DNA from: Nostoc sp. CENA543
GTDB taxonomy: Bacteria; Cyanobacteriota; Cyanobacteriia; Cyanobacteriales; Nostocaceae
Reading direction: 5' to 3'
Length of the DNA stretch: 64,000 nucleotides
Assembly (NCBI RefSeq): GCF_002896875.1
Contig: NZ_CP023278.1
Coordinates: forward strand, 4,286,501 to 4,350,500
This document shows, piece after piece, positions 34,199 to 52,427 of the stretch. The notes beneath the pieces are model-generated. The model was not told the origin of the DNA, did no database searches, and worked only from the letters and a program-made list of their open reading frames with translations. Each line of letters begins with the position of its first letter. The first letter of the stretch is position 1. The translations under genes were made by a program, and so were the position numbers.

Positions 34199-36463
34199 GT
34201 GGTTTATGCACAAATCAAAGCCAAGTTAACTGGACTTTTTCCCCAGTCACCAGGGGTAGAAGTTGCTAATAATGGTGTTGTTCCTGGGGAAATGAGTGTT
34301 GTACCACAAATTCCTTTGGGGGTTGATGAGGTATATAAGCGTTATGTTTGTGAGAACAGCAACCCTTTAACTTGTGCATGGACGCAAAAAAGCCTGGAAC
34401 AAGACCCCACGGCGAAACAATGCCTTAATTGCGGTTTTCCGGCGATTTTACCCCCCAAAACTGAAATTCGCGGCTATCGGGGACGATACCGCATAGATGG
34501 CTTTTTGGGAGGACGGGGAATGGGACGCTTGTACCAAGGTGTGCAGCTTGCAGACCAGCAGCCTGTGGTCATTAAGGAATATCTTTTACCACAACGGGTT
34601 TTTAATCAAGAGGAAACCAGGGAAAAAAAACAGGCTTTTGAACGGTTGGCGGGTTTAAGTTTAGCTGATGGTCGAGTTCAGGATATCCGCTTGATTTTAC
34701 CTTGGGATGCGATCGCTGATCCCACAGCCGAGCGTTGTTATCTTGTCACCACTGGTATTCAAGATACCTATCCCACTTTGCGGAAGTATCTTCATGAACA
34801 TGGTGCAATGAATGAAAACGAGGTTTATCATGTGCTGAACCAAGTGCTGCAAACATTGCAATTTCTCCACGGTCAAAAATTTACCTTACCTTCCGGTCAA
34901 GTACAACAAGGAATTGCACATGGTAATCTCAGTTTAGATAGTTTGTTATTAATTGCCCATGAACTAGAGTTTTTTACCCATGTTTGTGATTTAGCAGTTT
35001 GGGAAACTTTATTTGAATTACCTAATACTAAACAAAGCTCACCTACATTTACTCAAGATTTAAAAAATTTAGGATATATCGCTTTTTATTTATTATCTGG
35101 AAATACTGTAGACTCCAATAATCAAGCACTTGACCCGAAAATAGAACAGCATTGGCCGTCGGTGAGACAGGAATTTCAGGCTTTTCTGTTTCGCTTGTTA
35201 GAACTAGATAAACCATTTATTAGTGCCGAAGAAGCCAGACAAGCACTGATTCAAATTACACCAGTTACTCAAAACCAAGTTTTAGTCATAGAAGGGGAAG
35301 AAGAAACTAAAAAAACTTTTCATCCTCTTTATTGGTTATTGCTAAGTCTTTTAGGATTAGCATTTTTGGCTGGAATTATTTGGTTATTAATCAAAATATT
35401 TTATAAGCCAGAAGTGACTACACAAGATGCGGTAGTTTGTTGTTTAAAAGATGTGCCTGGTGTACCTCCAGGTAAATACAATTATACGGGCGAAAAATCG
35501 GCTACTTGGAGTTATATTTTACAGCAAAGCAATTTAATTTTACAAAATCAAACTTTAGAAGAGAAGCTCAAAGAGAGCCAACCTAAACTACAAATTAATT
35601 ATCGACCAGAAGAGAAATTAGAAATAGCGATCGCTAAGGTTCAATCTGGTCAGTATAATTTTGCTGTGACTAATTTGGTTAATCAATTACCACAACAAAT
35701 GAGATATAAAGAATTTGCCTATGACGGCTTGGTAGTTTTTGTGGCTTTTAGCTACTCTCAACGAGACCAAAATTTACCTGAACCCTTGCGGGGTCAAATT
35801 AGTCTTGAGCAATTGCGAAATTTATATACAGGCAAAATTAAATATTGGAATCAATTAAATCCTCAGTTACCTAAATTACGTGTAAATTTATATATACCCT
35901 CAGAAGCAGAAGCAGTAAATATTTTTAAAGAAAGAGTTTTAAAAGAACCTAATGCTATAGATACATTTGAGCGACTACAAAAAATAAATAACCAGCAGGA
36001 TACATTTACAGATAATGAGCCTATAGTAATTACTCGCTTGCATACCTTAGAAATGGTGAGAAGGATTTTACAAGATTTTGAAAAAGACGATAAAAATCAA
36101 GCTGAAAGGATTGGCAGTATAGGTTTTGCGACACTTAGTCAAGTATTTGGACAGTGTTCCGTATATCCTTTAGCCATCGTAGATGGTAATCAAGAAGCTG
36201 TACAATCTTTAGTCCAGAGTGATACAAATAAACCGATAAATCCCAAGACAGACTTATGTGATGATAAAGGAAGTTATAGTCCTAATCTTGAAGTTTTCAA
36301 GAACGGAACTTATCCCCTGAGTTATCCAATGGTTGTAGTTTATCTAGGAGATAATAGCCGTCCTCCCATTGGACAAAAATTTGCTGAAATGCTCAAAACG
36401 CAAGAAGTACAGAATCTCTTAGAACAAACTGGATTAGTACCTTTACAAAAAAACAATAAGTAA
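34199..36463 (+). CDS. pseudokinase - transmembrane - periplasmic-binding-protein fusion
   Basis: 754 residues in four parts. (1) A 4-Cys zinc-ribbon-like prefix (Cys51, Cys59, Cys75, Cys78). (2) A Hanks-kinase-like domain, about 95-350, with a degraded glycine loop FLGGRGMG at 102-109 and Lys126; HRD is replaced by HGN at 241-243 and DFG by CDL at 263-265, so phosphotransfer is unlikely. (3) One helix at about 378-401. (4) An outer PstS-like binding-protein domain, about 415-750, with NLYTGKIKYWNQLNPQLP and VVVYLGD. It starts at GTG 34199. It is the first gene of the tail-tube cluster, two bases from the next, so it probably senses an external ligand and passes a signal to the cluster. Confidence 0.85.
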   Translation: MVYAQIKAKLTGLFPQSPGVEVANNGVVPGEMSVVPQIPLGVDEVYKRYVCENSNPLTCAWTQKSLEQDPTAKQCLNCGFPAILPPKTEIRGYRGRYRIDGFLGGRGMGRLYQGVQLADQQPVVIKEYLLPQRVFNQEETREKKQAFERLAGLSLADGRVQDIRLILPWDAIADPTAERCYLVTTGIQDTYPTLRKYLHEHGAMNENEVYHVLNQVLQTLQFLHGQKFTLPSGQVQQGIAHGNLSLDSLLLIAHELEFFTHVCDLAVWETLFELPNTKQSSPTFTQDLKNLGYIAFYLLSGNTVDSNNQALDPKIEQHWPSVRQEFQAFLFRLLELDKPFISAEEARQALIQITPVTQNQVLVIEGEEETKKTFHPLYWLLLSLLGLAFLAGIIWLLIKIFYKPEVTTQDAVVCCLKDVPGVPPGKYNYTGEKSATWSYILQQSNLILQNQTLEEKLKESQPKLQINYRPEEKLEIAIAKVQSGQYNFAVTNLVNQLPQQMRYKEFAYDGLVVFVAFSYSQRDQNLPEPLRGQISLEQLRNLYTGKIKYWNQLNPQLPKLRVNLYIPSEAEAVNIFKERVLKEPNAIDTFERLQKINNQQDTFTDNEPIVITRLHTLEMVRRILQDFEKDDKNQAERIGSIGFATLSQVFGQCSVYPLAIVDGNQEAVQSLVQSDTNKPINPKTDLCDDKGSYSPNLEVFKNGTYPLSYPMVVVYLGDNSRPPIGQKFAEMLKTQEVQNLLEQTGLVPLQKNNK

Positions 36464-36464
36464 T

Positions 36465-36611
36465 ATGAAAGATGCAGACAAACAGATATTACTAGCAAAA
36501 CTAGCAGGTAAAATTTTAGGCGATCGGCAATTATTAGGAATGCTTGGCGATAGAGTTTATGAGTTAATGCTAGAAGAATTACGTCTGACAAAAGAGCGCA
36601 ATAGAAATTAA
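36465..36611 (+). CDS. 48-residue protein sharing a motif with the giant repeat protein
   Basis: Begins one base after the previous stop and ends 14 bases before the tube gene, so it is inside the operon. The amphipathic helix LGDRVYELMLEELRLTKERNR aligns with LAQEIYKILQQRLAIERERR near the C-terminus of the 2533-residue protein two genes downstream (pattern L-x3-[VI]-Y-x-[LI]-[ML]-x3-L-x-[LI]-x2-E-R). Both may bind the same partner, for instance the tube or adaptor. No known family name is assigned. Confidence 0.75.
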   Translation: MKDADKQILLAKLAGKILGDRQLLGMLGDRVYELMLEELRLTKERNRN

Positions 36612-36625
36612 TTAAGAGGTAAATA

Positions 36626-37141
36626 ATGACTAATACTGCTCGCGAATTAAATTATGTAACCACTAATAGATTTTATGTAGAAATGGAAAGCAGTATCACC
36701 GCTTGCTTTACCGAATGTCAAGGATTAGGTGTGACAGTCAAAACAGAGAAATTCTCCGAAGGTGGTGTAAATGATCAACAAAGAGTGCTGTTAAACCCAG
36801 CAGAGTTTTCTGATGTCACACTGAAGCGAGGAATTACTAATGATTTAACCTTCTGGACTTGGATGAGTCAAATTTTGAGTAGTGTTGGTGCTAACGCTAA
36901 ACAACGTCGTAACGTCAATATTTTATTATTTAACCAAGCTGGAGAAATTATGCAATGTTGGACTCTGATTGGTGCTGTTCCTATTGGATGGAAAGCACCC
37001 AGTTTTAGCGCAGAATCCAACACAGTAGCTATTGAAGAATTGACCTTAACCTATGAAGGCTTAAAAGTTGATAAGACTAGAGCAGGCGGTGCATCCATTT
37101 TATCAGGTCGAGATAGTGCGGGATATTTTTCTAGTAACTAG
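36626..37141 (+). CDS. phage tail tube (gp19/Hcp-like, TIGR02241-type) protein
   Basis: 171 residues. The N-terminus LNYVTTNRFYVEMESSITACFTECQGLGVTVK matches the beta-barrel opening of contractile-system tube proteins, and VTLKRGITNDLTFWTWM and the ending YEGLKV are typical of the gp19-like family (Pvc1/Pvc5, Afp1/5). Such proteins stack as hexamer rings to form the inner tube. RBS AGAGG precedes the ATG. Only one tube gene is present here, while known extracellular systems usually have two or three. Confidence 0.88.
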   Translation: MTNTARELNYVTTNRFYVEMESSITACFTECQGLGVTVKTEKFSEGGVNDQQRVLLNPAEFSDVTLKRGITNDLTFWTWMSQILSSVGANAKQRRNVNILLFNQAGEIMQCWTLIGAVPIGWKAPSFSAESNTVAIEELTLTYEGLKVDKTRAGGASILSGRDSAGYFSSN

Positions 37142-37152
37142 ATTAGTGATTT

Positions 37153-40100
37153 ATGACAGATAAATTAGCAGCTAATTTTGGTGAGTACCCAGAACTAGGA
37201 ATTAAAAAACCATTACTTCCTCATAAGCCTTTGGGACAAAAATTAATCAGACCTAAATTTTTGTCGCCTTTAGGTTATCAATCTCTATCAAGTTTTGATA
37301 ATTTAATATTTTCTGATTTTGAACTGACAGATGATACTTCTTCTAGTAATTTAAGTGCCACACAATTTTCATCTGAATCTCAGCCTGCGAATTTAAAACA
37401 ATCGAATTTAACCTTACAAAGATTTCCTAATAACAATAAATTTATCACTCTTAATGTTCCAGATAATTTAGTTATTCAACCACAACGAGAAAATCAGCCT
37501 TCTATTTCCAGTTCACCAGAAATCACATCAACAACACCAACAAATTCTGCACCTGAAACCACAGTTATTCAGCCACAACGAGAAAATCATTCATCCGTTG
37601 ATAATTCAGCAGCATTATCGCACTCAGAAATAATTACATCCAATACCACTAACTCAACACCTGAAATCACATTAATTCAACCACAACGAGAAAATCAGCC
37701 ATCAGTTGAAAGTTCACCAGAAATCACATCAACATCAACATATTCGGTGACGGAAACCACATTAATTCAGCCGCAAATGGAGAATTATCAAGCAGTTGGT
37801 AATTCAGAAGCATTATCACACTCAGAAGTAACTACATCAAACACAACTAACTCAACACCTGAAACCACAGTTATTCAGCTACAACTGGAAAATCAGCCAT
37901 CAGTTGAAAGTTCACCAGAAATCACATCGAAAACATCAACAAATTCTGCACCTGAAAACACAGTTATTCAGCCACAACGAGAAAATCATTCATCGGGTGA
38001 TAATTCAGCAGCATTATCGCACTCAGAAGTAATTACATCCAATACAACTAACTCAACACATGAAACCACGTTAATTCAAGCAAAACGGGAAAATCAGCCA
38101 TCAGTTGAAAGTTCCGCAGAAATCACATCAACACCAACGCATTCGGCGACGGAAACCACACTAATTCAGCCGCAAATGGAGAATTATCAAGCAGTTGGTA
38201 ATTCAGAAGCATTATCACATTCAGAAGTAACTACATCAAACACAACTAACTCAACACCTGAAACCACAGTTATTCAGCTACAACTGGAAAATCATCCATC
38301 GGGTGGTAATTCGGAAGCATTATCGCACTCAGAAGTAATTACATCAAACACAACCAACTCAACACCTGAAATCACATTAATTCAACCACAACGAGGAAAT
38401 CAGCCATCAGTTGAAAGTTCCGCAGAAATCACATCGAAAACATCAACAAATTCTGCACCTGAAACCACATTCATTCAGCCACAACGAGAAAATCATTCAT
38501 CAGTTGATAATTCAGCAGCATTATCGCACTCAGAAGTAATTACACCCAATACAACTAACTCAACACCTGAAACCACATCAATTCAACCGCAACGAGAAAA
38601 TCAGCCTTCCATTTCCAGTTCACCAGAAATCACATCAAAAACATCAACAAATTCTGCACCTGAAACCACATTCATTCAGCCACAACGAGAAAATCATTCA
38701 TCAGGTGATAATTCAGCAGCATTATCGCACTCAGAAGTAATTACACCCAATACAACTGACTCAAAACCTGAAACCACATTAATTCAAGCAAAACCGGAAA
38801 ATCAGCCATCAGTTGAAAGTTCACCAGAAATCACATCAAAAACATCAACAAATTCTGCACCTGAAACCACAGTTATTCAGCCACAACTGAAAAATAATTC
38901 ATCAGGTGATAATTCAGCAGCATTATCGCACTCAGAAGTAATTACATCCAATACAACTAACTCAACACCTGAAACCGCATTAATTCAACCACAACGAGAA
39001 AATCAGCCATCAGTTGAAAGTTCACCAGAAATCACATCGAAAACATCAACAAATTCTGCACCTGAAACCACATTCATTCAGCCACAACGAGAAAATCATT
39101 CATCAGTTGAAAATTCAGCAGCATTATCGCACTCAGAAGTAATTACACCCAATACAACTAACTCAACACCTGAAACCACGTTAATTCAAGCAAAACGGGA
39201 AAATCAGCCATCAGTTGAAAGTTCCGCAGAAATCACATCAACATCAACATATTCGGCGACGGAAACCACATTAATTCAGCCGCAAATGGAGAGTTATCAA
39301 GCAGTTGGTAATTCAGAAGCATTATCACATTCAGAAGTAGCTACATCAAACACAACTAACTCAACACCTGAAACCACAGTTATTCAACCACAACTGGAAA
39401 ATCATTCATCAGTTGATAATTCAGGAGTATTATCGAGCTCAGAAGTAATTACACCCAATACAACTGACTCAACACCTGAAACCACAGTTATTCAGCCACA
39501 ACGAGAAAATCATTCATCAGTTGAAAATTCAGCAGCATTATCGCACTCAGAAGTAATTACACCCAATACAACTAACTCAACACCTGAAACCACGTTAATT
39601 CAACCGCAACGAGAAAATCAGCCTTCCATTTCCAGTTCACCAGAAATCACATCAAAAACATCAACAAATTCTGCACCTGAAACCACAGTTATTCAGCCAC
39701 AACGAGAAAATCATTCATCAGTTGATAATTCAGCAGCATTATCGCACTCAGAAGTAATTACACCCAATACAACTAACTCAACACCTGAAACCACGTTAAT
39801 TCAACCGCAACGAGAAAATCAGCCTTCCATTTCCAGTTCACCAGAAATCACATCAAAAACATCAACAAATTCTGCACCTGAAATCACATTAATTCAACCA
39901 CAACGAGAAAATCATTCATCAGTTGATAATTCAGCAGCATTATCGCACTCAGAAATAATTACATCCAATACCACTAACTCAACACCTGAAATCACATTAA
40001 TTCAACCACAACGAGAAAATCAGCCATCAGTTGAAAGTTCACCAGAAATCACATCAAAAACATCAACAAATTCTGCACCTGAAACCACAGTTATTCAACC

Positions 40101-43100
40101 ACAACGAGAAAATCATTCATCAGGTGATAATTCAGCAGCATTATCGCACTCAGAAGTAATTACACCCAATACAACTGACTCAAAACCTGAAACCACATTA
40201 ATTCAAGCAAAACCGGAAAATCAGCCATCAGTTGAAAGTTCACCAGAAATCACATCAAAAACATCAACAAATTCTGCACCTGAAACCACAGTTATTCAGC
40301 CACAACTGAAAAATAATTCATCAGGTGATAATTCAGCAGCATTATCACACTCAGAAGTAATTACATCCAATACAACCAACTCAACACCTGAAATCACATT
40401 AATTCAACCACAACGAGGAAATCAGCCATCAGTTGAAAGTTCCGCAGAAATCACATCGAAAACATCAACAAATTCTGCACCTGAAACCACATTCATTCAG
40501 CCACAACGAGAAAATCATTCATCAGTTGAAAATTCAGCAGCATTATCGCACTCAGAATTAATTACACCCAATACAACTGACTCAACACCTGAAACCACGT
40601 TAATTCAAGCAAAACGGGAAAATCAGCCATCAGTTGAAAGTTCCGCAGAAATCACATCAACATCAACATATTCGGCGACGGAAACCACATTAATTCAGCC
40701 GCAAATGGAGAGTTATCAAGCAGTTGGTAATTCAGAAGCATTATCACATTCAGAAGTAGCTACATCAAACACAACTAACTCAACACCTGAAACCACAGTT
40801 ATTCAACCACAACTGGAAAATCATTCATCAGTTGATAATTCAGGAGTATTATCGAGCTCAGAAGTAATTACACCCAATACAACTGACTCAACACCTGAAA
40901 CCACAGTTATTCAGCCACAACGAGAAAATCATTCATCAGTTGATAATTCAGCAGCATTATCGCACTCAGAAGTAATTACACCCAATACAACTAACTCAAC
41001 ACCTGAAAACACATCAACATCAACATCAACATATTCGGTGACGGAAACCACATTAATTCAGCCGCAAATGGAGAATTATCAAGCAGTTGGTAATTCAGAA
41101 GCATTATCACACTCAGAAGTAACTACATCAAACACAACTAACTCAACATCTGAAATCACATTAATTCAACCACAACGAGAAAATCAGCCATCAGTTGAAA
41201 GTTCCGCAGAAATCACATCAACATCAACGCATTCGGCGACGGAAACCACATTAATTCAGCCGCAAATGGAGAATTATCAAGCAGTTGGTAATTCAGAAGC
41301 ATTATCACAGTCGGAAGTAGCTACATCAAACACAACTAACTCAACACCTGAAACCACAGTTATTCAGCCACAACGAGAAAATAATTCATCAGGTGATAAT
41401 TCAGCAGCATTATCGAACTCAGAAGTAATTACACCCAATACAACTAACTCAACACCTGAAATCACATTAATTCAACCACAACGAGAAAATCAGCCATCAG
41501 TTGAAAGTTCACCAGAAATCACATCGAAAACATCAACAAATTCTGCACCTGAAACCACAGTTATTCAGCCACAACGAGAAAATCATTCATCGGGTGATAA
41601 TTCAGCAGCATTATCGCACTCAGAATTAATTACATCCAATACAACTAACTCAACACCTGAAAACACAGTTATTCAACCACAACGAGAAAATCAGCCATCA
41701 GTTGAAAGTTCCGCAGAAATCACATCAACATCAACATATTCGGCGACGGAAACCACATTAATTCAGCCGCAAATGGAGAATTATCAAGCAGTTGGTAATT
41801 CAGAAGCATTATCACAGTCGGAAGTAGCTACATCAAACACAACTAACTCAACACCTGAAACCACAGTTATTCAGCCACAACGAGAAAATCATTCATCAGG
41901 TGATAATTCAGCAGCATTATCGCACTCAGAAGTAATTACACCCAATACAACTAACTCAACACCTGAAAACACAGTTATTCAACCACAACGAGGAAATCAG
42001 CCATCAGTTGAAAGTTCACCAGAAATCACATCAACATCAACATATTCGGTGACGGAAACCACATTAATTCAGCCGCAAATGGAGAATTATCAAGCAGTTG
42101 GTAATTCAGAAGCATTATCACACTCAGAAGTAACTACATCAAACACAACTAACTCAACATCTGAAATCACATTAATTCAACCACAACGAGAAAATCAGCC
42201 ATCAGTTGAAAGTTCCGCAGAAATCACATCAACATCAACGCATTCGGCGACGGAAACCACATTAATTCAGCCGCAAATGGAGAATTATCAAGCAGTTGGT
42301 AATTCAGAAGCATTATCACATTCAGAAGTAACTACATCAAACACAACTAACTCAACACCTGAAACCACAGTTATTCAGCCACAACGAGAAAATCATTCAT
42401 CAGGTGATAATTCAGCAGCATTATCGAACTCAGAAGTAATTACACCCAATACAACTAACTCAACACCTGAAATCACATTAATTCAACCACAACGAGAAAA
42501 TCAGCCATCAGTTGAAAGTTCCGCAGAAATCACATCAACACCAACGCATTCGGCGACGGAAACCACATTAATTCAGCCGCAAATGGAGAATTATCAAGCA
42601 GTTGGTAATTCAGAAGCATTATCACATTCAGAAGTAACTACATCAAACACAACTAACTCAACACCTGAAACCACAGTTATTCAACCGCAACGAGAACATC
42701 ATCCATCGGGTGATAATTCAGCAGCATTATCGCACTCAGAAGTAATTACATCCAATACAACTAACTCAACACCTGAAACCACATTAATTCAACCGCAACG
42801 AGAAAATCAGCCTTCCATTTCCAGTTCACCAGAAATCACACCAAAAACACCAACAAATTCTGCACCTGAAACCACAGTTATTCAGCCACAACTGGAACAT
42901 CATTCATCAGTTGATAATTCAGCAGCATTATCGCACTCAGAAGTAATTACACCCAATACAACTGACTCAACACCTGAAACCACGTTAATTCAAGCAAAAC
43001 CGGAAAATCAGCCATCAGTTGCAAGTTCCGCAGAAATCACATCAACATCAACATATTCGGCGACGGAAAGCACATTAATTCAGTCGCAAATGGAGAATTA

Positions 43101-44754: not shown

Positions 44755-44786
44755 ATTCAACAGTCAACAATTAACAGTCAACAATC

Positions 44787-45311
44787 ATGAGTACCACCCT
44801 TTTAGTTAAAGCCAAATTAATTGCAACAGAACAAGCTGCACCCGATATTGAATTTATGTTCAATCCCACCCAGCTAGATTTTTCCCAACAAATCAACCTC
44901 ACCAAAAGCAGTGGTGCGCGGACTGGACGAGGATTACCCAAAGTCAGCTTTGCCTATCCCGAACCTTGCATCCTGACTATTAACAACATTATCTTTGATA
45001 CCTACGAAGCAGGTACAAGCGTCCTAACTCATCTGAAAAAATTTGAAAAAGCCGTCAACTTTGCAGAGGCTGGAACAGGTGTAGATAAACGTCCACCTAT
45101 ATATATATTTACTTGGGGTGATCAACAGTATATCCGTTGTTTTGTTCAGTCACTTAGCTATAGTTTGACGCTATTTTTACCAGATGGTACGCCTGTAAGA
45201 GCCAAAGTAAACCTGACACTAGAAGAAGTAGACGAATCAATTACACAACCAGGAATGGGCGCACCTGCTAGCGTCAATAGAGGCGGTGACAACAGAAGCA
45301 AGCGCAAGTAA
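44787..45311 (+). CDS. CIS tube/adaptor protein (Pvc7/Afp7 N-domain type)
   Basis: 174 residues. EFMFNPTQLDFSQQINLTKSSG followed by a hydrophobic segment and the beta-rich end DGTPVRAKVNLTLEEVDE is the pattern of the CIS_tube family that joins the inner tube to the VgrG spike. In Afp/Pvc systems this protein carries a C-terminal LysM domain; here it stops after a short basic tail (NRSKRK), so the LysM part is absent. Located directly before the spike gene. Confidence 0.85.
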   Translation: MSTTLLVKAKLIATEQAAPDIEFMFNPTQLDFSQQINLTKSSGARTGRGLPKVSFAYPEPCILTINNIIFDTYEAGTSVLTHLKKFEKAVNFAEAGTGVDKRPPIYIFTWGDQQYIRCFVQSLSYSLTLFLPDGTPVRAKVNLTLEEVDESITQPGMGAPASVNRGGDNRSKRK

Positions 45312-45381
45312 TTCGACTTTTGGTTAATAGCCTAGTGCCATTGATCCTCTTAGGCTATGGAAAACCCATTGTGCTTATCCT

Positions 45382-47349
45382 ATGCCCGGAGTCAGTTACA
45401 TCCCCGAACCCCTATTGCAAATTGATAATACTGATGCTTCAAAAGAATTAATTGAAGACATTTTGCAAATCTCTGTAGAAGAGAGTCTCCATCAACCAGG
45501 GATGTTTACCTTAGTCATTCGTAATGACTACTTTCCCGGAAAAACGACTGAAACTACCTGGAAACATCAAAGTTTATTTGCTATTGGCAAAAAAATCAAA
45601 ATTGGCTTTGTTTCCAGCACCACAGAAAACGCAGAGTTTCAGGATGTAGAACAGGGTTATGTATTGGAAGGGGAAATCACTGCTATAGAAACTGAATTTA
45701 CACCTGAATCACAAGCTCCGATTGTGATTCGGGGTTATGATATTTCTCACAGATTACATCGGGGACGTTATAACCGTTCTTTTCAAAACGTCACTGATAG
45801 TGATGTTGTCACCCAAATTGCAGGTGAAACAAGTATCACAACCGGCACAATAACTACCACAACTCCCGTTCATGAATACATCTTTCAAGAAAACCAAACT
45901 AACATGGAATTCTTGCGAGAAAGAGCCGCCCGCATAGGTTTTGAATTATACGTGCAGGATGGGAAACTCAACTTTCGTCAACCCACACAAAACCAGACTT
46001 TATCTCTGAAATGGCTCAAAGACATTCACAGTTTTCGTGTTCGTGTCACCAGTGCGGAACAGGTGAGTTCTGTAGAAGTGCGGGGTTGGGACTACTCTAC
46101 AAAGAAATCAATTGTATCAACAGCCACAACAGAACAAGTAATTACCAGTACAGATAATGGTAAAGGTAGCCTCAGTAGCAAGAAATTTACCATTCAGCCC
46201 AAGATGATAGTTGTAGATCAACCTGTGTTTAGTACAGCTGAAGCGCAAAAAATCGCTCAAGCTTTGTGTAACGAACTGGGGGGAGAATTTGTCTATGCAG
46301 ACGCGAAAGGAGAAGGTAATCCTTTAATTAGAACAGGAAAAGTCATCAAGCTGACAGAGATGGGGAATTACAGTGGCAGTTATTACGTTACAGAAACTCG
46401 TCACCTCTTCCAAAAGCGCAAATATACCACAGAATTTAGTGTGCGGGGATTACGTCCAGGAGACTTATTCGCTACATTAACCCCGCAGCAACACTTGCAA
46501 CCAGGACAAACTCTGTTAGTGGGAATTGTCAGTAATAATAAAGATCCTAAAGGTTGGGGTAGAGTCAGAGTGAAATTTCCCACCTTGACTGAAGAACATG
46601 AAAGTAATTGGGCGAGAGTAGTAAGTGTAGGTGCTGGGCCAGGTAGGGGTTTTGATTGTTTACCAGAAGTTAATGATGAGGTTTTAGTAGCATTTGAACA
46701 TGGTGATATTCATCGCCCCTATGTAATTGGTGGGGTGTGGAATGGTACAGATGCGCCACCAGAAAGCGTAAATGATACCATTGTCGATGGTAAAGTCCGC
46801 CTCCGCACCTTTAAAACTCGTGTTGGACATAAATTACAGTTTGTAGAAGAAGATAAAGGCACTAAAAAAGGCGTTTATTTACAGACAATAGGTGGTCATA
46901 ATTTTCGTTTAAATGACAGTGATAAATTTGTAGAATTAGAGACAACTGGCGGACATAAATATCGTGCTGATGATAGTGATAAAACAATTAGTTTAAATTC
47001 TACTGGTGATATTGCAGTTAAGTCGGGAACTACTGGTACAACAAAGAAAATTAGTGTAAATGGCGGAGAAATAGCCCTAACTGCCACGCAAAAAATTAGC
47101 CTCACTGTTGGGGGTACTAGTATAGAATTAACTCCTAGTGGCATTACTATGAGAACCACTGGAACAGTGAGTATACAAGCTGGTAGCTCTATGAGTGTAC
47201 AATCTGGTGGTTCTTTGAGCGTAACCTCTGGTGCGTCAATTAGTGCTTCTGCGGGTGCGTCAATTAGTGCTTCTGCGGGTGCGTCAGTTAGCATTAATGG
47301 CGCAGCCACAGTTGGCATTATGGGCGGTATAGTTAGGCTGAATTGTTAA
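45382..47349 (+). CDS. VgrG-like baseplate spike (Pvc8/phage gpD + gp5 fused type)
   Basis: 655 residues. The N-terminal ~360 residues resemble the phage late-control D/VgrG hub (IEDILQISVEESLHQPGMFTL and QENQTNMEFLRERAARIGFE). An OB-fold at about 375-455 has LVGIVSNNKDPKGWGRVRVKFP and DIHRPYVIGGVWN. The remaining ~190 residues are a Gly/Ser/Thr-rich triple beta-helix ending in repeated SASAGASISASAGASVS. No enzymatic extension follows, so it is a structural spike capped by the PAAR protein. The 5' spacer of 70 bases may hold its own ribosome site. Confidence 0.9.
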   Translation: MPGVSYIPEPLLQIDNTDASKELIEDILQISVEESLHQPGMFTLVIRNDYFPGKTTETTWKHQSLFAIGKKIKIGFVSSTTENAEFQDVEQGYVLEGEITAIETEFTPESQAPIVIRGYDISHRLHRGRYNRSFQNVTDSDVVTQIAGETSITTGTITTTTPVHEYIFQENQTNMEFLRERAARIGFELYVQDGKLNFRQPTQNQTLSLKWLKDIHSFRVRVTSAEQVSSVEVRGWDYSTKKSIVSTATTEQVITSTDNGKGSLSSKKFTIQPKMIVVDQPVFSTAEAQKIAQALCNELGGEFVYADAKGEGNPLIRTGKVIKLTEMGNYSGSYYVTETRHLFQKRKYTTEFSVRGLRPGDLFATLTPQQHLQPGQTLLVGIVSNNKDPKGWGRVRVKFPTLTEEHESNWARVVSVGAGPGRGFDCLPEVNDEVLVAFEHGDIHRPYVIGGVWNGTDAPPESVNDTIVDGKVRLRTFKTRVGHKLQFVEEDKGTKKGVYLQTIGGHNFRLNDSDKFVELETTGGHKYRADDSDKTISLNSTGDIAVKSGTTGTTKKISVNGGEIALTATQKISLTVGGTSIELTPSGITMRTTGTVSIQAGSSMSVQSGGSLSVTSGASISASAGASISASAGASVSINGAATVGIMGGIVRLNC

Positions 47350-47480
47350 TAGTCAATAGTCAATAGTCAACAGTCATTAGTCATTAGTCATTAATACGTT
47401 GTCTTCCTTGTCTCCTAATCCCCAGTCCCCAATCCCTACCAGTCCCCAGTCTCCAATCCCCAGTCCCCAATCCCCAATCC
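47348..47480. repeat. STRR and CCCCAGT-type repeats between spike and PAAR genes
   Basis: Copies of AGTCAAT/AGTCATT heptamers (47348-47393), then GTCTTCCTTGTC and a CCCCAGT/CCCCAAT tandem array. It separates two genes that otherwise would be adjacent and is probably untranslated. Confidence 0.8.
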
Positions 47481-47490
47481 CTAATTCCCT

Positions 47491-47778
47491 ATGTTTCCAG
47501 CCGCACGACTTACTGATTTAACTGTTACCGGTGATCCAATTACTGCACCTGGTGTTCCTAATGTGTTGATTATGGGTTTACCCGCCGCTTGTGTTGGTGA
47601 TTTGGTGGTGGGGCCTGTGATTACAGGTAATATTGTGATGGGTTCTTTGACTGTATTAATTGGTGGGCGACCAGCTGCTAGAATCACTTCTCAGGTAGCT
47701 GGTGTGAATACTGTAACTGGTATACCTTTAACTACTGTTGTAGGGATAGGTGCGCCGACTGTATTGATTGGTGGTTAA
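47491..47778 (+). CDS. PAAR-domain spike tip protein
   Basis: 95 residues. Begins MFPAARLTDLTVTGDPITAPGVPNVLIMGLPAA, the PAAR pattern, with a second repeat at NIVMGSLTVLIGGRPAARITSQVAG. PAAR proteins sharpen the VgrG tip and may carry effectors. The classic His/Cys zinc ligands are few here (no His; one Cys), so metal binding may differ. Single domain, with no effector fusion. Confidence 0.88.
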   Translation: MFPAARLTDLTVTGDPITAPGVPNVLIMGLPAACVGDLVVGPVITGNIVMGSLTVLIGGRPAARITSQVAGVNTVTGIPLTTVVGIGAPTVLIGG

Positions 47779-47785
47779 ATTTAAC

Positions 47786-47907
47786 AGGACTTACGCAAGT
47801 GTTACAATTGATAGCTGGTGCGTGATGCGATAATTCTCATGACTACGTTTAAATTCTGTCACAGCGTCACACACCCTACAAAAAAATATGCCAGTTGCGG
47901 AAGTCCT
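47786..47907. mobile_element. MITE-like element with imperfect terminal inverted repeats
   Basis: 122 bases start AGGACTTACGCAAGTG and end with the inverse complement of AGGACTTCCGCAACTG. The flanks also pair (TTTAA on each side). It has no coding capacity, as expected of a miniature inverted-repeat element. It lies between the spike and GTPase genes. Target duplication not certain. Confidence 0.65.
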
Positions 47908-47981
47908 ACTTAAAAGTCATTGACTGCGTAAGTTCAATTAATCATCAAATATAAGTCTTATATAAAACCTGATATTTATTT

Positions 47982-50183
47982 ATGAGTAGAACTGAGCGCA
48001 TTGCTAAGATTATTGCAAAACGCCAACCGTTGGCGAAAAAAATTACAGAGGTAGAAGAGAATTTAAATTCTATTTCCTATGCACTCCACTACTTAGAAGA
48101 CTACCGCAATCAGTTATTAGCAACGGTTGAAGATATTAGTATTTCAGGAAAATTGCAAGCCATTGATTTTGCCAAAATCCAATTGAGTCTGGTAGCTGAG
48201 TTAGAAGCTTTAAGTAAGCTCAAAGCTCGCTTTTCGCGTAACACTCTTAACATTGGTGTGATTGGACGCGCTAGACAGGGAAAAAGCCGTCTATTACAAA
48301 GTTTAACGAAATTGACAGCAGCAGAAATTCCTGATGGGAGTGGTGAACACTGCACGGGAGTTCGCAGCACAATTTACCATAACCCAGCTTTTGAAACCTA
48401 TGGAGAAGTAACTTTCCATACAGAACGGTCTTTCTTGGATGAAGTGATTGCTCCCTATTATGAACAATTGAAATTGGGTGCTAAACCAATTACATTAGGA
48501 GAATTTGCCACTCAACCATTGCCGTCTTTACCTAGTAACTTTGCTGGTGCAGAGGGGGGTGCAAAGTATGAACATCTGCGGGGATATCATAAAAATATTG
48601 ATAAATATCGTCATCTGTTTCGAGAAATTTCACCACGGCGGATTTCTAGAGATGAAATTAGAGCTTATGTAGCACAAGATAATCTTGAAGGTGAACGTAT
48701 TTATTTTAATTACGTAGCAGTTAAAGATGTAAAAATTGTTTGTAAATTCCCTAATGATGATGTGGGGCAAATTGCTCTAGTTGATTTACCAGGATTGGGC
48801 GATACAGGGATTGGTGATGAAGAAAGAATGGTCAAAACTATTGGTCAAGAAGTTGACGCAGTTCTCTTTGTCAGAATGCCAAAACCTTCTGGTGATTTTT
48901 GGGGAGATGTGGATGTCAAACTTTATGATACAGCTCGTTCAGCTTTAACTGATTTGCCGATTGAGCAGTGGTCTTTTATGGTTCTCAACCGCACAGATAG
49001 AGGTTCTAACTATGGAGATAATGCTTCTAACTGTGAACGATTGACACAGAGTATTACTGATAAACATATCAAACTTGTAGAATGTATAACGGCAAATTGT
49101 GCTGATCCTGATGAAGCCAATAATAAAGTTTTGGATCGTGTGGTTGATTATTTGGCTACTGAAATCACCTCTCTAGATAAAAAATATGCCTCTTCTTGTC
49201 AAGAACGACTTGAGCAACTCCAAAGTGCTATTGATGCTGAATTAGATAAAGCTAAAAATGCGTTAGGACAGCCGATACAGTCAGCCGAAACTAGTAGATT
49301 TGAAGTTCTATTTAAACAACTTTGGGAACAATTGACGACTGGTCTAGAGATTTTACTGAAAGAATTAAGTAAACAGATAGATAAGCATGATCGTGACTTT
49401 AAAGAGGCAGTTGAAGCTGCAATTAAAGCTTGTTATGAAGATACTAAATTACCGTCTTCAATAGAGGGAATTGAAGTTAGACGTAATGTGAGTAATTCTT
49501 ATGAAACAGCTTATAATGAATATTTAAATGAAATTCGCGCCCATATTTCCAAACATTTTTTAACTTTAGATGAGGGGTTAAAAAATTCTTTGAACCGTGT
49601 TAAATCTCAGGTGGCGCAAGTATTGATAGAAAAAGGTAATTTAGGAGGGCTAACTGAGGTAAGAGGGGCTGATTTTGTTCAGGCGATCGCCAAACTATTA
49701 CCTGATGACCTTATAGGCGATGGACAACCTTGCAGAATCAAATTCGGTTTCCAAATTCTAGCAGAATTCGAGTTATCTTACCGAGGCATGATTCAACACC
49801 GCATTCGTAAATGTCTGAATGATTTATCTCCTGATACAAAAACTCTCAAACTCCCACCAAATCCCAATGCTCAACAAGTAATGAGCAATCTCAAAGCACT
49901 ACACGGGGAAGCAGTTTATCAATGCGAAACAGCCTTAGATGAATTACTGTGTGAGCCTTCCCAAGCGGGTTTTGCCATAGTGGAAGAGTTTCTTGATCGT
50001 GTGCTGCGTGCAGACGAAGTTGAAATAGAGTGGCGGATATTTTTGCGGGAAGAACGCGCTGCCATCTGGCCTGATGAATTTGAGTTACTGGGTGAACGTA
50101 CTAGACTAAGAAGAGAGTGGTTAGAAGCAATAGAAAAAGTCGCGATCGCCAATCAATTAGACTCTATGAAATTTCTCAATTAA
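47982..50183 (+). CDS. dynamin-like large GTPase
   Basis: 733 residues. GTPase motifs: G1 GRARQGKS at 95-102, a G2 Thr near 125, G3 DLPG at about 268-271 and G4 NRTD at about 336-339. An N-terminal coiled-coil helix (about 5-60) and a long helical C-terminal region (about 400-733) flank the domain, as in bacterial dynamin-like proteins that remodel or guard membranes. No membrane helix was seen; peripheral association is expected. It ends 18 bases before the second GTPase gene, so the two are co-transcribed. Confidence 0.85.
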   Translation: MSRTERIAKIIAKRQPLAKKITEVEENLNSISYALHYLEDYRNQLLATVEDISISGKLQAIDFAKIQLSLVAELEALSKLKARFSRNTLNIGVIGRARQGKSRLLQSLTKLTAAEIPDGSGEHCTGVRSTIYHNPAFETYGEVTFHTERSFLDEVIAPYYEQLKLGAKPITLGEFATQPLPSLPSNFAGAEGGAKYEHLRGYHKNIDKYRHLFREISPRRISRDEIRAYVAQDNLEGERIYFNYVAVKDVKIVCKFPNDDVGQIALVDLPGLGDTGIGDEERMVKTIGQEVDAVLFVRMPKPSGDFWGDVDVKLYDTARSALTDLPIEQWSFMVLNRTDRGSNYGDNASNCERLTQSITDKHIKLVECITANCADPDEANNKVLDRVVDYLATEITSLDKKYASSCQERLEQLQSAIDAELDKAKNALGQPIQSAETSRFEVLFKQLWEQLTTGLEILLKELSKQIDKHDRDFKEAVEAAIKACYEDTKLPSSIEGIEVRRNVSNSYETAYNEYLNEIRAHISKHFLTLDEGLKNSLNRVKSQVAQVLIEKGNLGGLTEVRGADFVQAIAKLLPDDLIGDGQPCRIKFGFQILAEFELSYRGMIQHRIRKCLNDLSPDTKTLKLPPNPNAQQVMSNLKALHGEAVYQCETALDELLCEPSQAGFAIVEEFLDRVLRADEVEIEWRIFLREERAAIWPDEFELLGERTRLRREWLEAIEKVAIANQLDSMKFLN

Positions 50184-50201
50184 TTCACTCAGGAAAATAC
50201 A

Positions 50202-51152
50202 ATGCCATCAGAATTGAAAATTACTATGCTAGGACATAGAGGTGTAGGTAAAACTAGTATTTTAACCGCTATGTATGAGCAGTTTGATACTACTATAGGT
50301 GAAGCAGGTCTGCAACTCACACCAGATTTAGAAAGCTCGGCTCTATTATCAAAACGTTTAGGTGAATTAAAAGCTCTATTAAATGATTTTGAAGCAACAG
50401 GAGGCTTAGAAGGAACTGAAGGGCATAAATCTTTTAAATTTGGTCTGGGAAAATTGGGAGGTAAACCCAATTTACAATTGAGTTTTCAAGATTTCCCTGG
50501 TGAATATCTGCAAAATAATTGTGAATTTGTCAGTAATGTAGTAAAAGAATGTGCAGCAGTTTTAATTGCTATTGACACACCGCCTCTCATGGAAGCAAAC
50601 GGTAGATGGCATGATTTAATCAATAACCCTAAGCAAATTACTGATTTTTTTAAGATAGCATATGCTGACTTAGAAGAACCAAAACTTGTGCTGTTAGTAC
50701 CAGTTCGCTGTGAAAAATACGTCCAAAATGAGCAAGATGCAAAAAAGCTAACAGAGCGCATAAAAGACAAATACAGTGGTTTATTACGCTTGTTTAACAG
50801 TGAAAATCTACTAACAAAGGTGGCTTGTGTGGTGACACCTGTGCAAACGGTGGGAACTGTATTTTTTTCTCAGATTAAAGAAATTGATGGTAAACCCAAT
50901 TTTTATTTCCGCAAAATTGATCATCATGCTGAGTACAGTCCCCAAGATAGTGATCAGCCACTACGATATCTTTTACGCTTTGTACTCAAGCTTCATTTAG
51001 ATACTAAGCGCGGCTGGTTTAATCGCATTCGGCGTTGGCTAGGTTGGGATGAATACTTAAAGGAAGCAGCTCGTAAATCTGCTGAAAAATGTAAGCATAC
51101 TGGTGGATTTGAAATTTTGCAAGGTCTCGACTTACTGGATATTAAAAAATAG
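50202..51152 (+). CDS. TRAFAC-type small GTPase
   Basis: 316 residues. G1 GHRGVGKTS at 11-19 and G3 DFPG at 97-100 are clear. In place of NKxD there is VPVRCEKY, so guanine specificity is unusual or ATP could be used. The C-terminal third is basic and helical. RBS AGGA lies upstream. GTPases of this kind paired with an associated protein encoded next to them occur in bacterial conflict and signalling systems; here the associated protein would be the next gene. Confidence 0.8.
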   Translation: MPSELKITMLGHRGVGKTSILTAMYEQFDTTIGEAGLQLTPDLESSALLSKRLGELKALLNDFEATGGLEGTEGHKSFKFGLGKLGGKPNLQLSFQDFPGEYLQNNCEFVSNVVKECAAVLIAIDTPPLMEANGRWHDLINNPKQITDFFKIAYADLEEPKLVLLVPVRCEKYVQNEQDAKKLTERIKDKYSGLLRLFNSENLLTKVACVVTPVQTVGTVFFSQIKEIDGKPNFYFRKIDHHAEYSPQDSDQPLRYLLRFVLKLHLDTKRGWFNRIRRWLGWDEYLKEAARKSAEKCKHTGGFEILQGLDLLDIKK

Positions 51153-51161
51153 GAGTTGGAC

Positions 51162-52370
51162 ATGGAAATTTATGTTTACACTGCTGGTTTTGATCAACAG
51201 TACGGCTATTGTTGGCGAAGAATTACAGAGAATAATCAGGAAGAAATCAGTGAACCAGCATTAGTCAGCAAATTTAAAGAACTCCTAGAAACTGAATCTC
51301 CCTCTCTACTTTTAGCGCGTGATTATAACCAGTTAATTTTACTAGTCACGGGTATAAAAGCCAGTCAAAGGAAAGATTATCGTGGTCGGACTATTCGTAA
51401 TTCCGTGGCTTGGATTTTTCCCTACTCTGAAGAAAATGAGCAGAAGTTACAAGAATTAGCGGCTCTTTCATTAAGAGGAGAATTAGATCATAAAATTGAT
51501 GATGCCATCACACAAGATGATGAATATGGGTTTAAAGTTTCTTTTCAGGAAATAGTCGATATAATTAGTAGTTTAAATAAAAGAGATAGAATTAACACAG
51601 CAGAATCTAGTTATATGTTAGCTTACAATTCCCCAGCTAACAGAGATAAACTAGCAACTCTTTTGGAAACAAAAAGTTTGCCTCCTCAAGAAAAAAATGT
51701 AGACGTACTAATAGTAGTTACTGGTATTAAAGCAGAGGATACTTTAATCAAATATTTAGTCTGGCGAGGACTATCGAATTTGATTCAATATCAAAGTTTT
51801 ACTGAATACAATCCACAAGTTACTAATATAGTTAAAAAAAACTCAGGCGGTTCAAGAAAACAAGAAAATAACAGTCAAACGTTAATTTTAATCTTTGCCG
51901 GTTTAGGCCTGATGGCAATATTCTTGTGGTTTTTTTTTAGGCTTTTTTCGCCAATTCAAGGTTTAAAAGTAGAATATCCCCCTACGGGTGCTATAGCTGC
52001 TATGAGTTTGGGAGGACAACATATTGTTAGTAATACCAATGGGAATTTACTTGTACAGAATCTGACAACTACAAACACTAGTAGTCCTCCTAGAGAAGTA
52101 AAACCAACTATTGAAGTCTCATCTCTTGCCGTCAACTCTGACGGTACAGTTATTATTGGTGGTGCTAATGATGGGCAAATATGGTTATGGCAATATGATA
52201 ATGCTCAGAAGCAATTTCAAGGTAAACCTTTTCTCAAAAAGCATATTGGCAAAGTTTTATCAGTAGCCATTAGTCAAGATGGTAATACTATTGCTAGTAG
52301 CGGTGCTGATGGAATGGTGTTTATGTGGAATAGAAAAGGAGAAATTATAGATGAGAAAAAATTAAAATAA
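51162..52370 (+). CDS. membrane-anchored WD40 protein with GTPase-associated-like N-domain
   Basis: 402 residues. The start is ATG at 51162 with AGGAG (51151-51155) overlapping the previous stop; a TTG at 51156 is also in frame. The N-terminal ~220 residues (EIYVYTAGFDQQYGYCWRR...) resemble domains found beside bacterial GTPases (GAP1-like; weak). A transmembrane helix at about 241-262 (TLILIFAGLGLMAIFLWFFF) precedes two to three WD40 blades (KVLSVAISQDGNTIASSGADGMVFMWNRKGE). So few blades make an incomplete propeller; it may assemble in trans or be truncated. Confidence 0.75.
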   Translation: MEIYVYTAGFDQQYGYCWRRITENNQEEISEPALVSKFKELLETESPSLLLARDYNQLILLVTGIKASQRKDYRGRTIRNSVAWIFPYSEENEQKLQELAALSLRGELDHKIDDAITQDDEYGFKVSFQEIVDIISSLNKRDRINTAESSYMLAYNSPANRDKLATLLETKSLPPQEKNVDVLIVVTGIKAEDTLIKYLVWRGLSNLIQYQSFTEYNPQVTNIVKKNSGGSRKQENNSQTLILIFAGLGLMAIFLWFFFRLFSPIQGLKVEYPPTGAIAAMSLGGQHIVSNTNGNLLVQNLTTTNTSSPPREVKPTIEVSSLAVNSDGTVIIGGANDGQIWLWQYDNAQKQFQGKPFLKKHIGKVLSVAISQDGNTIASSGADGMVFMWNRKGEIIDEKKLK

Positions 52371-52427
52371 ATCAAGTTGGTGTTGTAGCGATCGCACCCC
52401 CATTATACAGAGGCGATCGCATAATCA

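Follow-up and report, generated by a model that had tools for sequence, protein, structure and literature searches.

The question raised by this locus of Nostoc sp. CENA543 is whether a tube, an adaptor, a spike and a tip that are encoded side by side without a sheath form a device of their own or belong to a larger machine. The window, which is the whole stretch of 64,000 nucleotides that was analysed, corresponds to C1:4286501-4350500 of a 7.2 Mb genome (G000; other genomes and loci are given below by their G and L numbers, and coordinates not preceded by C1 are those of the window). From position 34199, the + strand encodes in order a protein that combines kinase-like, transmembrane (TM) and periplasmic binding protein (PBP) parts and is called kinPBP here, a gp19 tube protein, a protein of 2,533 aa, a CIS_tube adaptor, a VgrG spike, a PAAR tip, a dynamin-like GTPase, a second GTPase and a WD40 protein. 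An initial annotation, made from the letters alone, saw either a satellite spike module of a contractile system, such as the thylakoid-anchored one of cyanobacteria, or a distinct non-contractile device joined to the GTPases. Based on sequence comparisons, we consider it likely that the segment 34199-47778 encodes part of one contractile injection system (CIS) whose genes are divided over four places on the chromosome and which is nearest to Streptomyces subtype IId, with kinPBP as its proposed membrane receptor and the GTPase and WD40 genes as an unrelated insertion.

Parts of the system and their presence across genomes

The genome contains the parts of a CIS of the Afp/eCIS kind: sheath, inner tube, tube initiator, adaptor, spike and PAAR as well as gp25 (Cis9), Cis11, Cis12, the AAA+ ATPase (Cis15) and the cap (Cis16). 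The genome search that the initial annotation had suggested placed the sheath at 2.50 Mb, gp25 and the baseplate genes at 6.48 Mb and the AAA+ gene at 0.02 Mb. The sheath gene (C1:2497278-2498948), which has Phage_sheath_1 and Phage_sheath_1C matches, lies in a locus at C1:2.495-2.499 Mb that also encodes three gp19 tubes, two Pvc16-type caps (Pvc16_N was matched twice) and two small paralogues. At C1:6.487 Mb is the only gp25 match of the genome at E <= 0.001 (PF04965, 72 bits), and it is followed within C1:6.483-6.487 Mb by Cis11 (TIGR02243, 462 bits; the C-terminal 545 aa are given) and Cis12 (TIGR02242, 133 bits); a Cis13-like protein with a weak CIS13_fam match (35 bits, cut-off 370) and two large proteins, one of which has WD40 repeats, are encoded there as well. 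The AAA+ gene (C1:24118-26085), whose product is 61% identical to the AAA+ protein in the cluster of the relative G039, is flanked by genes for two eCIS_core proteins, of which one has a C-terminus resembling a WHH nuclease, and two more eCIS_core genes are found elsewhere in the genome. The description of the cassette as sheathless was therefore accurate for the 18 kb, which showed no gene for a sheath, gp25, a baseplate or an AAA+ protein, and inaccurate for the genome.

The scattered genes share a pattern of presence. We searched 120 order-level genomes with five proteins (spike, sheath, Cis11, kinPBP and the dynamin-like GTPase) and placed the cut-offs at gaps in the scores: for the spike 460 bits against 190 in the next genome, for the sheath 523 against 245, for Cis11 265 against 120 and for kinPBP 101 against 49. 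Above these cut-offs, the genomes with the sheath and those with Cis11 were the same 32, the spike was found in 31 of them and in none of the other 88, and kinPBP orthologues above 100 bits had the same counts, spanning 20 genera according to the genus column of the search. Weaker matches under the cut-offs (the spike in 44 of the 120 genomes at E <= 0.001, the sheath in 46 and Cis11 in 36 at 1e-20) belong mostly to other phage-tail-like systems. The near-identical presence of sheath, Cis11, spike and kinPBP supports the part of the initial annotation that proposed a spike module of a contractile system encoded elsewhere, together with a sensor-like membrane protein.

The gene-order comparison that had also been suggested showed the tube and spike genes clustered with the sheath in some relatives, and the GTPases almost never near the spike. 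Of the 32 system copies (31 spike genomes, with G077 counted twice), nine have both the sheath and Cis11 no more than 60 kb away from the spike. Seven of these compact copies also have kinPBP there, and it adjoins the Cis5 gene in all six that were fetched. Sheath, spike and Cis11 were all present in eight of ten fetched clusters, the sheath of G038 being cut by the end of the stretch, and the composite cluster comprises caps, sheath, tubes, small proteins, AAA+, kinPBP, Cis5, the protein in the slot between Cis5 and Cis7, Cis7, spike, gp25, Cis11, Cis12 and Cis13. The fetched clusters differ in order, strand and completeness, and that of G101 is without kinPBP and Cis5. The system is plasmid-borne in some cyanobacteria, namely on plasmid ABRG53d of Pseudanabaena sp. 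ABRG5-3 (L206) and on pBOCT2 of Brasilonema octagenarum (L209).

In the window, kinPBP (754 aa; 34199..36463, + strand) is followed on the same strand by the tube initiator, which has a gp19 fold and stands in the Cis5 position (171 aa; 36626..37141; PF06841 130.7 bits, TIGR02241 144.5). Against the NCBIfam model CIS5_fam it scored 83.8 bits, under the cut-off of 260. The Cis6 (spike plug) position is occupied by a giant ORF (open reading frame) with tandem repeats (2,533 aa; 37153..44754, +), which the initial annotation had missed between the tube gene and the adaptor. The tube-spike adaptor in the Cis7 position (174 aa; 44787..45311, +; PF19266 CIS_tube, 72.5 bits) had no LysM match in the family profile search, and in the PDB it matches two tube initiators, 8kea with 43 bits and 9gtp with 32 bits. 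The VgrG-type spike, Cis8 (655 aa; 45382..47349, +; NF033848 367.6 bits, cut-off 275), is closest by sequence, among solved spikes, to 9gtr of S. coelicolor (E 1.6e-52), and the PAAR tip, Cis10 (95 aa; 47491..47778, +; PF05488 54.3 bits), ends the cassette. The tube, the adaptor without LysM, the VgrG and the PAAR protein, as well as the pseudokinase-TM-PstS-like protein upstream, had been recognised correctly. The nearest named relative is Nostoc sp. CMAA1605, with a spike identity of 98% in the named-relative search. In six Nostoc strains (L072, L073, L074, L078, L080 and L091), the spike module itself is split further, with Cis7 and the spike lacking Cis5 and the giant directly upstream.

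The pseudokinase-PstS membrane protein

The kinPBP protein consists of a zinc-ribbon-like stretch of four cysteines (Cys 51, 59, 75 and 78), a kinase fold (85-357), a TM helix (376-401) and a PstS-type fold (425-749). In the AlphaFold model, which was built from a 20-row alignment (mean pLDDT 79.3, pTM 0.49; rows L063 and L119 are apparently the same organism), helix 376-401 covers the hydrophobic stretch. All 20 rows have HGN in place of HRD, which turns the catalytic Asp into Asn, and judged by this loss the kinase domain is a pseudokinase. Outside the orthologues, only two partial matches (49 and 43 bits) were found at E <= 1e-10. The same threshold applied to 72,556 plasmid records returned three with kinPBP, and these are the three that carry the spike and sheath of this type. 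Among 80 named loci, many of which are incomplete, kinPBP was found in 21.

Of 31 system copies, 11 have the gene at most 60 kb away from the spike. In G060 it stands beside Cis5, the slot protein and Cis7, with the spike 3.2 Mb away, and the 17 kb fetched around it in G088 and in G105 showed no further gene of the system, the spike being 0.45 and 1.3 Mb away, respectively. From these genomes and from the placements near contig ends that are given below, it follows that kinPBP usually adjoins Cis5 and is yet retained where it is unlinked. We conclude that kinPBP belongs to the injection system. On pBOCT2 of Brasilonema octagenarum (L209), an FHA gene overlaps the kinPBP gene.

A role for this protein is suggested by CisA. 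According to the available text of two reports, the IId system of S. coelicolor is free in the cytoplasm and mediates cell death under stress (PMC10066040, PMC12237407); in the second of these, the membrane protein CisA is described as required for contraction and firing and its outer domain as resembling solute-binding proteins. A Cys-rich stretch before the TM segment of CisA is described in the accessible part of PMC10020575. CisA (SCO4242) shares with kinPBP a single TM segment, a cytoplasmic zinc-binding-like part, an extracytoplasmic binding-like domain and a tie to genomes with a CIS. In our comparison, SCO4242 was represented by a CisA-like protein of S. clavuligerus that was named by its position and layout. 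Unlike kinPBP, with its pseudokinase and PstS fold, this protein has no kinase match, and its outer part has a weak F5/8-type-C match. By analogy, we propose that kinPBP is a membrane receptor that triggers firing. Particles would assemble in the cytoplasm and load the eCIS_core effectors, including the one with the WHH-nuclease-like C-terminus; the zinc-ribbon-like stretch and the pseudokinase, both cytoplasmic, would bind the baseplate; the PstS-like domain on the outside would detect a ligand or stress; and the state of the ligand would allow the particle to contract against the membrane of its own cell, in line with the proposal made for CisA in S. coelicolor.

The best-placed alternative, which we regard as unlikely, is that kinPBP acts as a regulator, either of transcription or of nutrient status, which is inherited together with the machine and works outside it, its PstS domain reporting phosphate. 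Against it, no DNA-binding family was matched in kinPBP by the family profile searches, the catalytic Asp is replaced in every aligned row and the gene adjoins the tube-initiator gene in many clusters. The RxxGSGT motif, with which PstS proteins bind phosphate, is not apparent in kinPBP, and the ligand may therefore not be phosphate.

A further kinase-like protein is encoded in the cluster on plasmid pDATS01 of Deinococcus aquaticus (L207:13325-19098), where the spike is 35% identical to that of the window and Cis12 is fused to an FHA domain. This protein (L207:14308-19098; 1,596 aa) has a kinase domain (96.8 bits) with HGN and a TM-like hydrophobic stretch. It differs from kinPBP in having FHA and Ig-like repeats and no PBP match, and pairwise BLASTP between the two found no significant similarity; WD40C matched the Deinococcus protein at only E 7e-4 over 121 residues. 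The Deinococcus cluster suggests that membrane proteins of a kinase-like type may have been adopted by CIS more than once.

Known systems and the protein in the plug slot

Among solved structures, the CIS of S. coelicolor (IId) is the best match for the sheath (394 bits against 180 for Anabaena) and for the spike (182 against 124), and it provides the only Cis11 match at E <= 1e-5. Coupling to the thylakoid-anchored type, as initially suggested, is therefore not favoured, since sheath, Cis11 and spike all score highest against S. coelicolor, although Cis5 does not. The sheath also has full-length matches of 39-40% on Streptomyces and Deinococcus plasmids. The system of S. coelicolor is likewise without a recognised tape measure in the available text of PMC10066040; it differs in that the genes are spread here over four loci and in that Cis7 is without LysM here, whereas chain 9gtp_P is a LysM protein. 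With the Anabaena CIS, as described in the accessible text of PMC8894136, the system shares its cyanobacterial host and the gene logic of Cis5, Cis6, Cis7, Cis8 and Cis10; a part of the Anabaena Cis6 projects into the lumen of the tube. In contrast to the split arrangement found here, the Anabaena genes form a single cluster (all3313-all3327), and a LysM Cis7 joins the tube to the baseplate there (PMC8894136, same text), while no LysM was matched here. The sheath, spike and Cis11 of Anabaena are less similar than those of Streptomyces.

Several observations weigh against our reading of one dispersed, IId-like, receptor-gated system. Regarding the common presence, genome G076 has the sheath and Cis11 without the spike, which is the sole difference between the sets, and the Fisher value of 6e-28 for co-occurrence ignores shared ancestry and is descriptive only. 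Many of the genomes are drafts, in which separate contigs are no proof of distance, and in G057, G110, G076 and G077 kinPBP and Cis5 lie at or near a contig end. The kinPBP exception is G038, in which the neighbour of Cis5 is a weakly kinPBP-like protein of 752 aa (61 bits). The four N-terminal cysteines are kept in 16 of the 20 kinPBP rows and missing in four. BLASTP of kinPBP against the S. clavuligerus CisA-like protein found no similarity (best E 6.6), so the parallel with CisA is architectural only. Concerning the relation to known systems, Cis5 is not nearest to Streptomyces (9rce 55, Pvc5 50, Anabaena 47 and 9gtp 43 bits), Cis7 matches 8kea before 9gtp of S. coelicolor, and the structurally known cyanobacterial CIS is thylakoid-anchored, which bears on the target membrane. 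No obvious candidate for the tape measure (Cis14) was seen in the ten fetched clusters, no Cis14 model having been searched, and the giant can be called Cis6 from its position and architecture only. In the sheath tree (34 rows), the cyanobacterial clade had support of 100/100 and its join to Streptomyces and Deinococcus was not resolved. The Streptomyces sheath is likewise the closest one for a different CIS type found in this order, so the nearest structure alone cannot define subtype IId; for these last two reasons we use the label IId-like.

The second CIS type was found at L210-L214 (G035, G101, G088, G096 and G084). In the last four of these genomes it has more than one sheath paralogue and a spike match that is split over two ORFs, and according to the spike search it coexists with the IId-like system in at least six genomes.

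The giant in the plug slot is rich in S, T, N and P and contains tandem repeats as well as 62 copies of [IVL]Q[RPAT][KQ]; its PLG-rich N-terminus and a C-terminal NLEILAQEIYxxLRQRLxIERER segment are kept in relatives. The profile searches gave no confident family for it, and its C-terminus had no PDB match either as a single sequence or as a 14-row profile (best E 0.72, unrelated); because of this, the Cis6 assignment depends on place and layout as stated above. A match to LupA (22.9 bits, under the cut-off) was taken as low-complexity. In 32 named loci the gap between Cis5 and Cis7 ranges from 285 to 2,933 codons and is filled by one ORF in 30 of them; the extremes of size among the slot proteins are 3,110 aa (L109) and 151 aa (G024). 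In complete slot proteins the two termini are mostly conserved, in contrast to the middle. The cluster of S. clavuligerus leaves no room between Cis5 and Cis7 for such a gene. In the same slot of the Pseudanabaena plasmid ABRG53d, a giant of 2,531 aa is encoded.

Cis6 (Alg6) is described in the available part of PMC8894135 as a small trimeric plug made of a strand, a flexible loop and a C-terminal helix and needed for assembly, and in that of PMC8894136 the flexible loop of Anabaena Cis6 reaches into the lumen of the tube. Should the giant be a Cis6 whose loop has expanded, we estimate that its three copies of 2,533 aa, when fully packed, would occupy about 80 nm of a lumen that is assumed to be 4 nm wide. 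The [IVL]Q[RPAT][KQ] motif, which was first spotted by eye, is common to slot proteins and eCIS_core effectors. An unbiased count of four-letter patterns ranked IQ.K and IQ.Q high in the slot proteins and LQ.K and IQ.K in the effectors. In 61 slot proteins the motif occurs 11.2 times per 1000 aa compared to 0.56 after block shuffling, with at least two copies in 47, and 1,461 other ORFs have 0.56 per 1000 aa. For 22 effectors the frequency was 5.7 per 1000 aa, and for 19 held-out effectors from genomes of this system it was 6.7, with at least two copies in all 19; one twin genome was dropped from the held-out set, and several of the rest are close relatives. Five of seven effectors from genomes with only another CIS type also hold the motif, two further loci having no usable ORF. 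In G057, G034, G110, G093 and G076, long open frames (about 2,370-2,850 aa) were observed that encode several eCIS_core domains in tandem.

It is conceivable, although we think it rather improbable, that the syringe is receptor-gated and uses the giant plug as an internal cargo rope, whose disordered residues, numbering hundreds to thousands, would thread up the lumen and whose motifs, together with those of the effectors, would engage a common partner; the plug would then be a loading scaffold and possibly the missing ruler. Three findings speak against such a meaning of the motif. In 59 ORFs of similar composition (an initial 66 with 4.25 per 1000 aa, minus seven slot ORFs that the classifier had missed), it reaches 1.8 per 1000 aa compared to 0.47 after shuffling, with at least two copies in 12. 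The shortest slot proteins (about 270 aa) carry no copy. In several effectors that were examined, one copy falls in a conserved stretch of the family, so part of the effector signal is due to common descent. We treat a tape-measure role of the giant as only a possibility: it is S/T/N/P-rich, and the 270-271 aa found in Laspinema would be far too short for it.

The GTPase and WD40 block and the remaining alternatives

Downstream of the tip lie the dynamin-like GTPase gene (47982..50183, +; PF00350 24.2 bits, just below the Pfam cut-off of 27), the second GTPase (50202..51152, +; weak DO-GTPase2 match, 17.2 bits) and the WD40 protein (51156..52370, +; PF00400 43.8 bits), all three of which the initial annotation had identified. 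They lie in a block (47784..52423) whose limits are the blastn breakpoints against the sister genome G077, in which homology runs to window position 47783 and resumes at 52424, with 49 nt in between. The left edge of the block has a 17-nt imperfect inverted repeat (47781-47797/47925-47941), one arm of which contains AGGACTTACGCA, and which is perhaps a small mobile element. At E <= 1e-20 the dynamin-like gene is present in 46 of the 120 genomes, 15 of the 32 system-positive and 31 of the 88 negative ones (Fisher p = 0.29). It is near the spike in one of the 15 genomes that hold both, G000 itself, and in one of 80 named loci, a very close relative. At seven of eight fetched sites in other genomes (G065, G098, G118, G017, G067, G028 and G096), the dynamin-like gene is followed by the second GTPase and a WD40-type gene, and no injection-system genes were seen in those stretches; at the eighth (G113), a gap precedes the second GTPase, and a WD40 gene was not observed. 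Because the cassette co-occurs with the system no more often than expected and is hardly ever found near the spike, the site is empty in G077 and the cassette stands free elsewhere, the GTPase and WD40 genes are not part of the injection system, contrary to the joining that had been proposed. Their place here is most simply explained by an insertion, which in these data this genome has in common only with the 98% relative. The trio of a dynamin-like GTPase, a small GTPase and a WD40-type protein forms a cassette of its own in seven genomes of the order (L157, L158, L159, L160, L161, L174 and L175). PADLOC matches were judged to be kinase-, GTPase-, coiled-coil- and WD40-like cross-matches and not a defence system.

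The dispersal of the genes could also mean that a real system is decaying, its cluster having been broken up after the loss of function, and we consider this very improbable. Among the eight system-positive genomes with at most 10 contigs, four (G000, G060, G088 and G105) have their sheath, spike and Cis11 genes distributed across more than 1 Mb, whereas these genes lie within about 135 kb in the remaining four (G038, G046, G113 and G065), and the insertion directly after the cassette would suit decay as well. However, the core ORFs of the window are intact, complete sets are retained in 31 of the 32 genomes, the dispersed ones included, and the dN/dS against G077 is 0.04-0.16 over five window genes, kinPBP, Cis5 (0.08), Cis7 (0.04), spike (0.09) and PAAR (0.05), a test that covers the window and not the sheath and baseplate genes. 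The core window genes are thus under purifying selection.

An equally small probability is given to a spare or effector-specific spike island that serves another contractile machine, for example, the prophage-like region at C1:2.67-2.71 Mb. Orphan vgrG islands occur in type VI secretion systems, and the second sheath of the genome lies in that region (G000:C1:2673976-2712756; L012-L014), which holds its own sheath and tube-, CIS_tube-, hub- and base_V-type genes. This set of its own accounts for the second sheath and the second spike matches of the genome, and all other Phage_base_V (E <= 0.001) and CIS_tube matches are confined to it. The spike of the window is the only base_V match outside that region, so it is not a spare, and co-occurrence pairs it with the sheath at 2.50 Mb and with Cis11 at 6.48 Mb. 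Least credible of all is the stand-alone non-contractile tube-spike device working with membrane-remodelling GTPases, for which the 18 kb without a sheath or baseplate gene and the GTPase genes directly after the PAAR gene would speak, and which is contradicted by sheath and baseplate genes that lie at other places in the genome and have the presence pattern of the spike, by the relatives in which the sheath is clustered near this cassette and by the GTPases, which are unassociated and missing at the site in G077.

Type IId regions in filamentous cyanobacteria have already been reported, as the accessible part of PMC10020575 shows. In contrast to the kind itself, the dispersal, the pseudokinase-PstS partner and the giant hypervariable protein of the plug slot are new as far as our searches of the literature show. 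These searches found no report of dispersed CIS loci in cyanobacteria or of a kinase-PBP partner, and neither point appears in the available text of PMC8894136, PMC10066040, PMC12237407, PMC12998442, PMC10020575, PMC12210884, PMC8894135, PMC8213781 or PMC11126660. Because of the dispersal, surveys that rely on clustering could overlook these systems or give them a wrong name, which is what occurred here with a single window. The hypervariable giant offers a handle on cargo loading and length control in a system without a recognised tape measure. The pseudokinase-PstS protein bears on how intracellular contractile systems are triggered and find their membrane, for which Streptomyces needs a membrane protein with a solute-binding-like outer domain. 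As kinPBP follows the system over 20 genera, in a few genomes unlinked from it, a receptor-gated trigger becomes testable in cyanobacteria.

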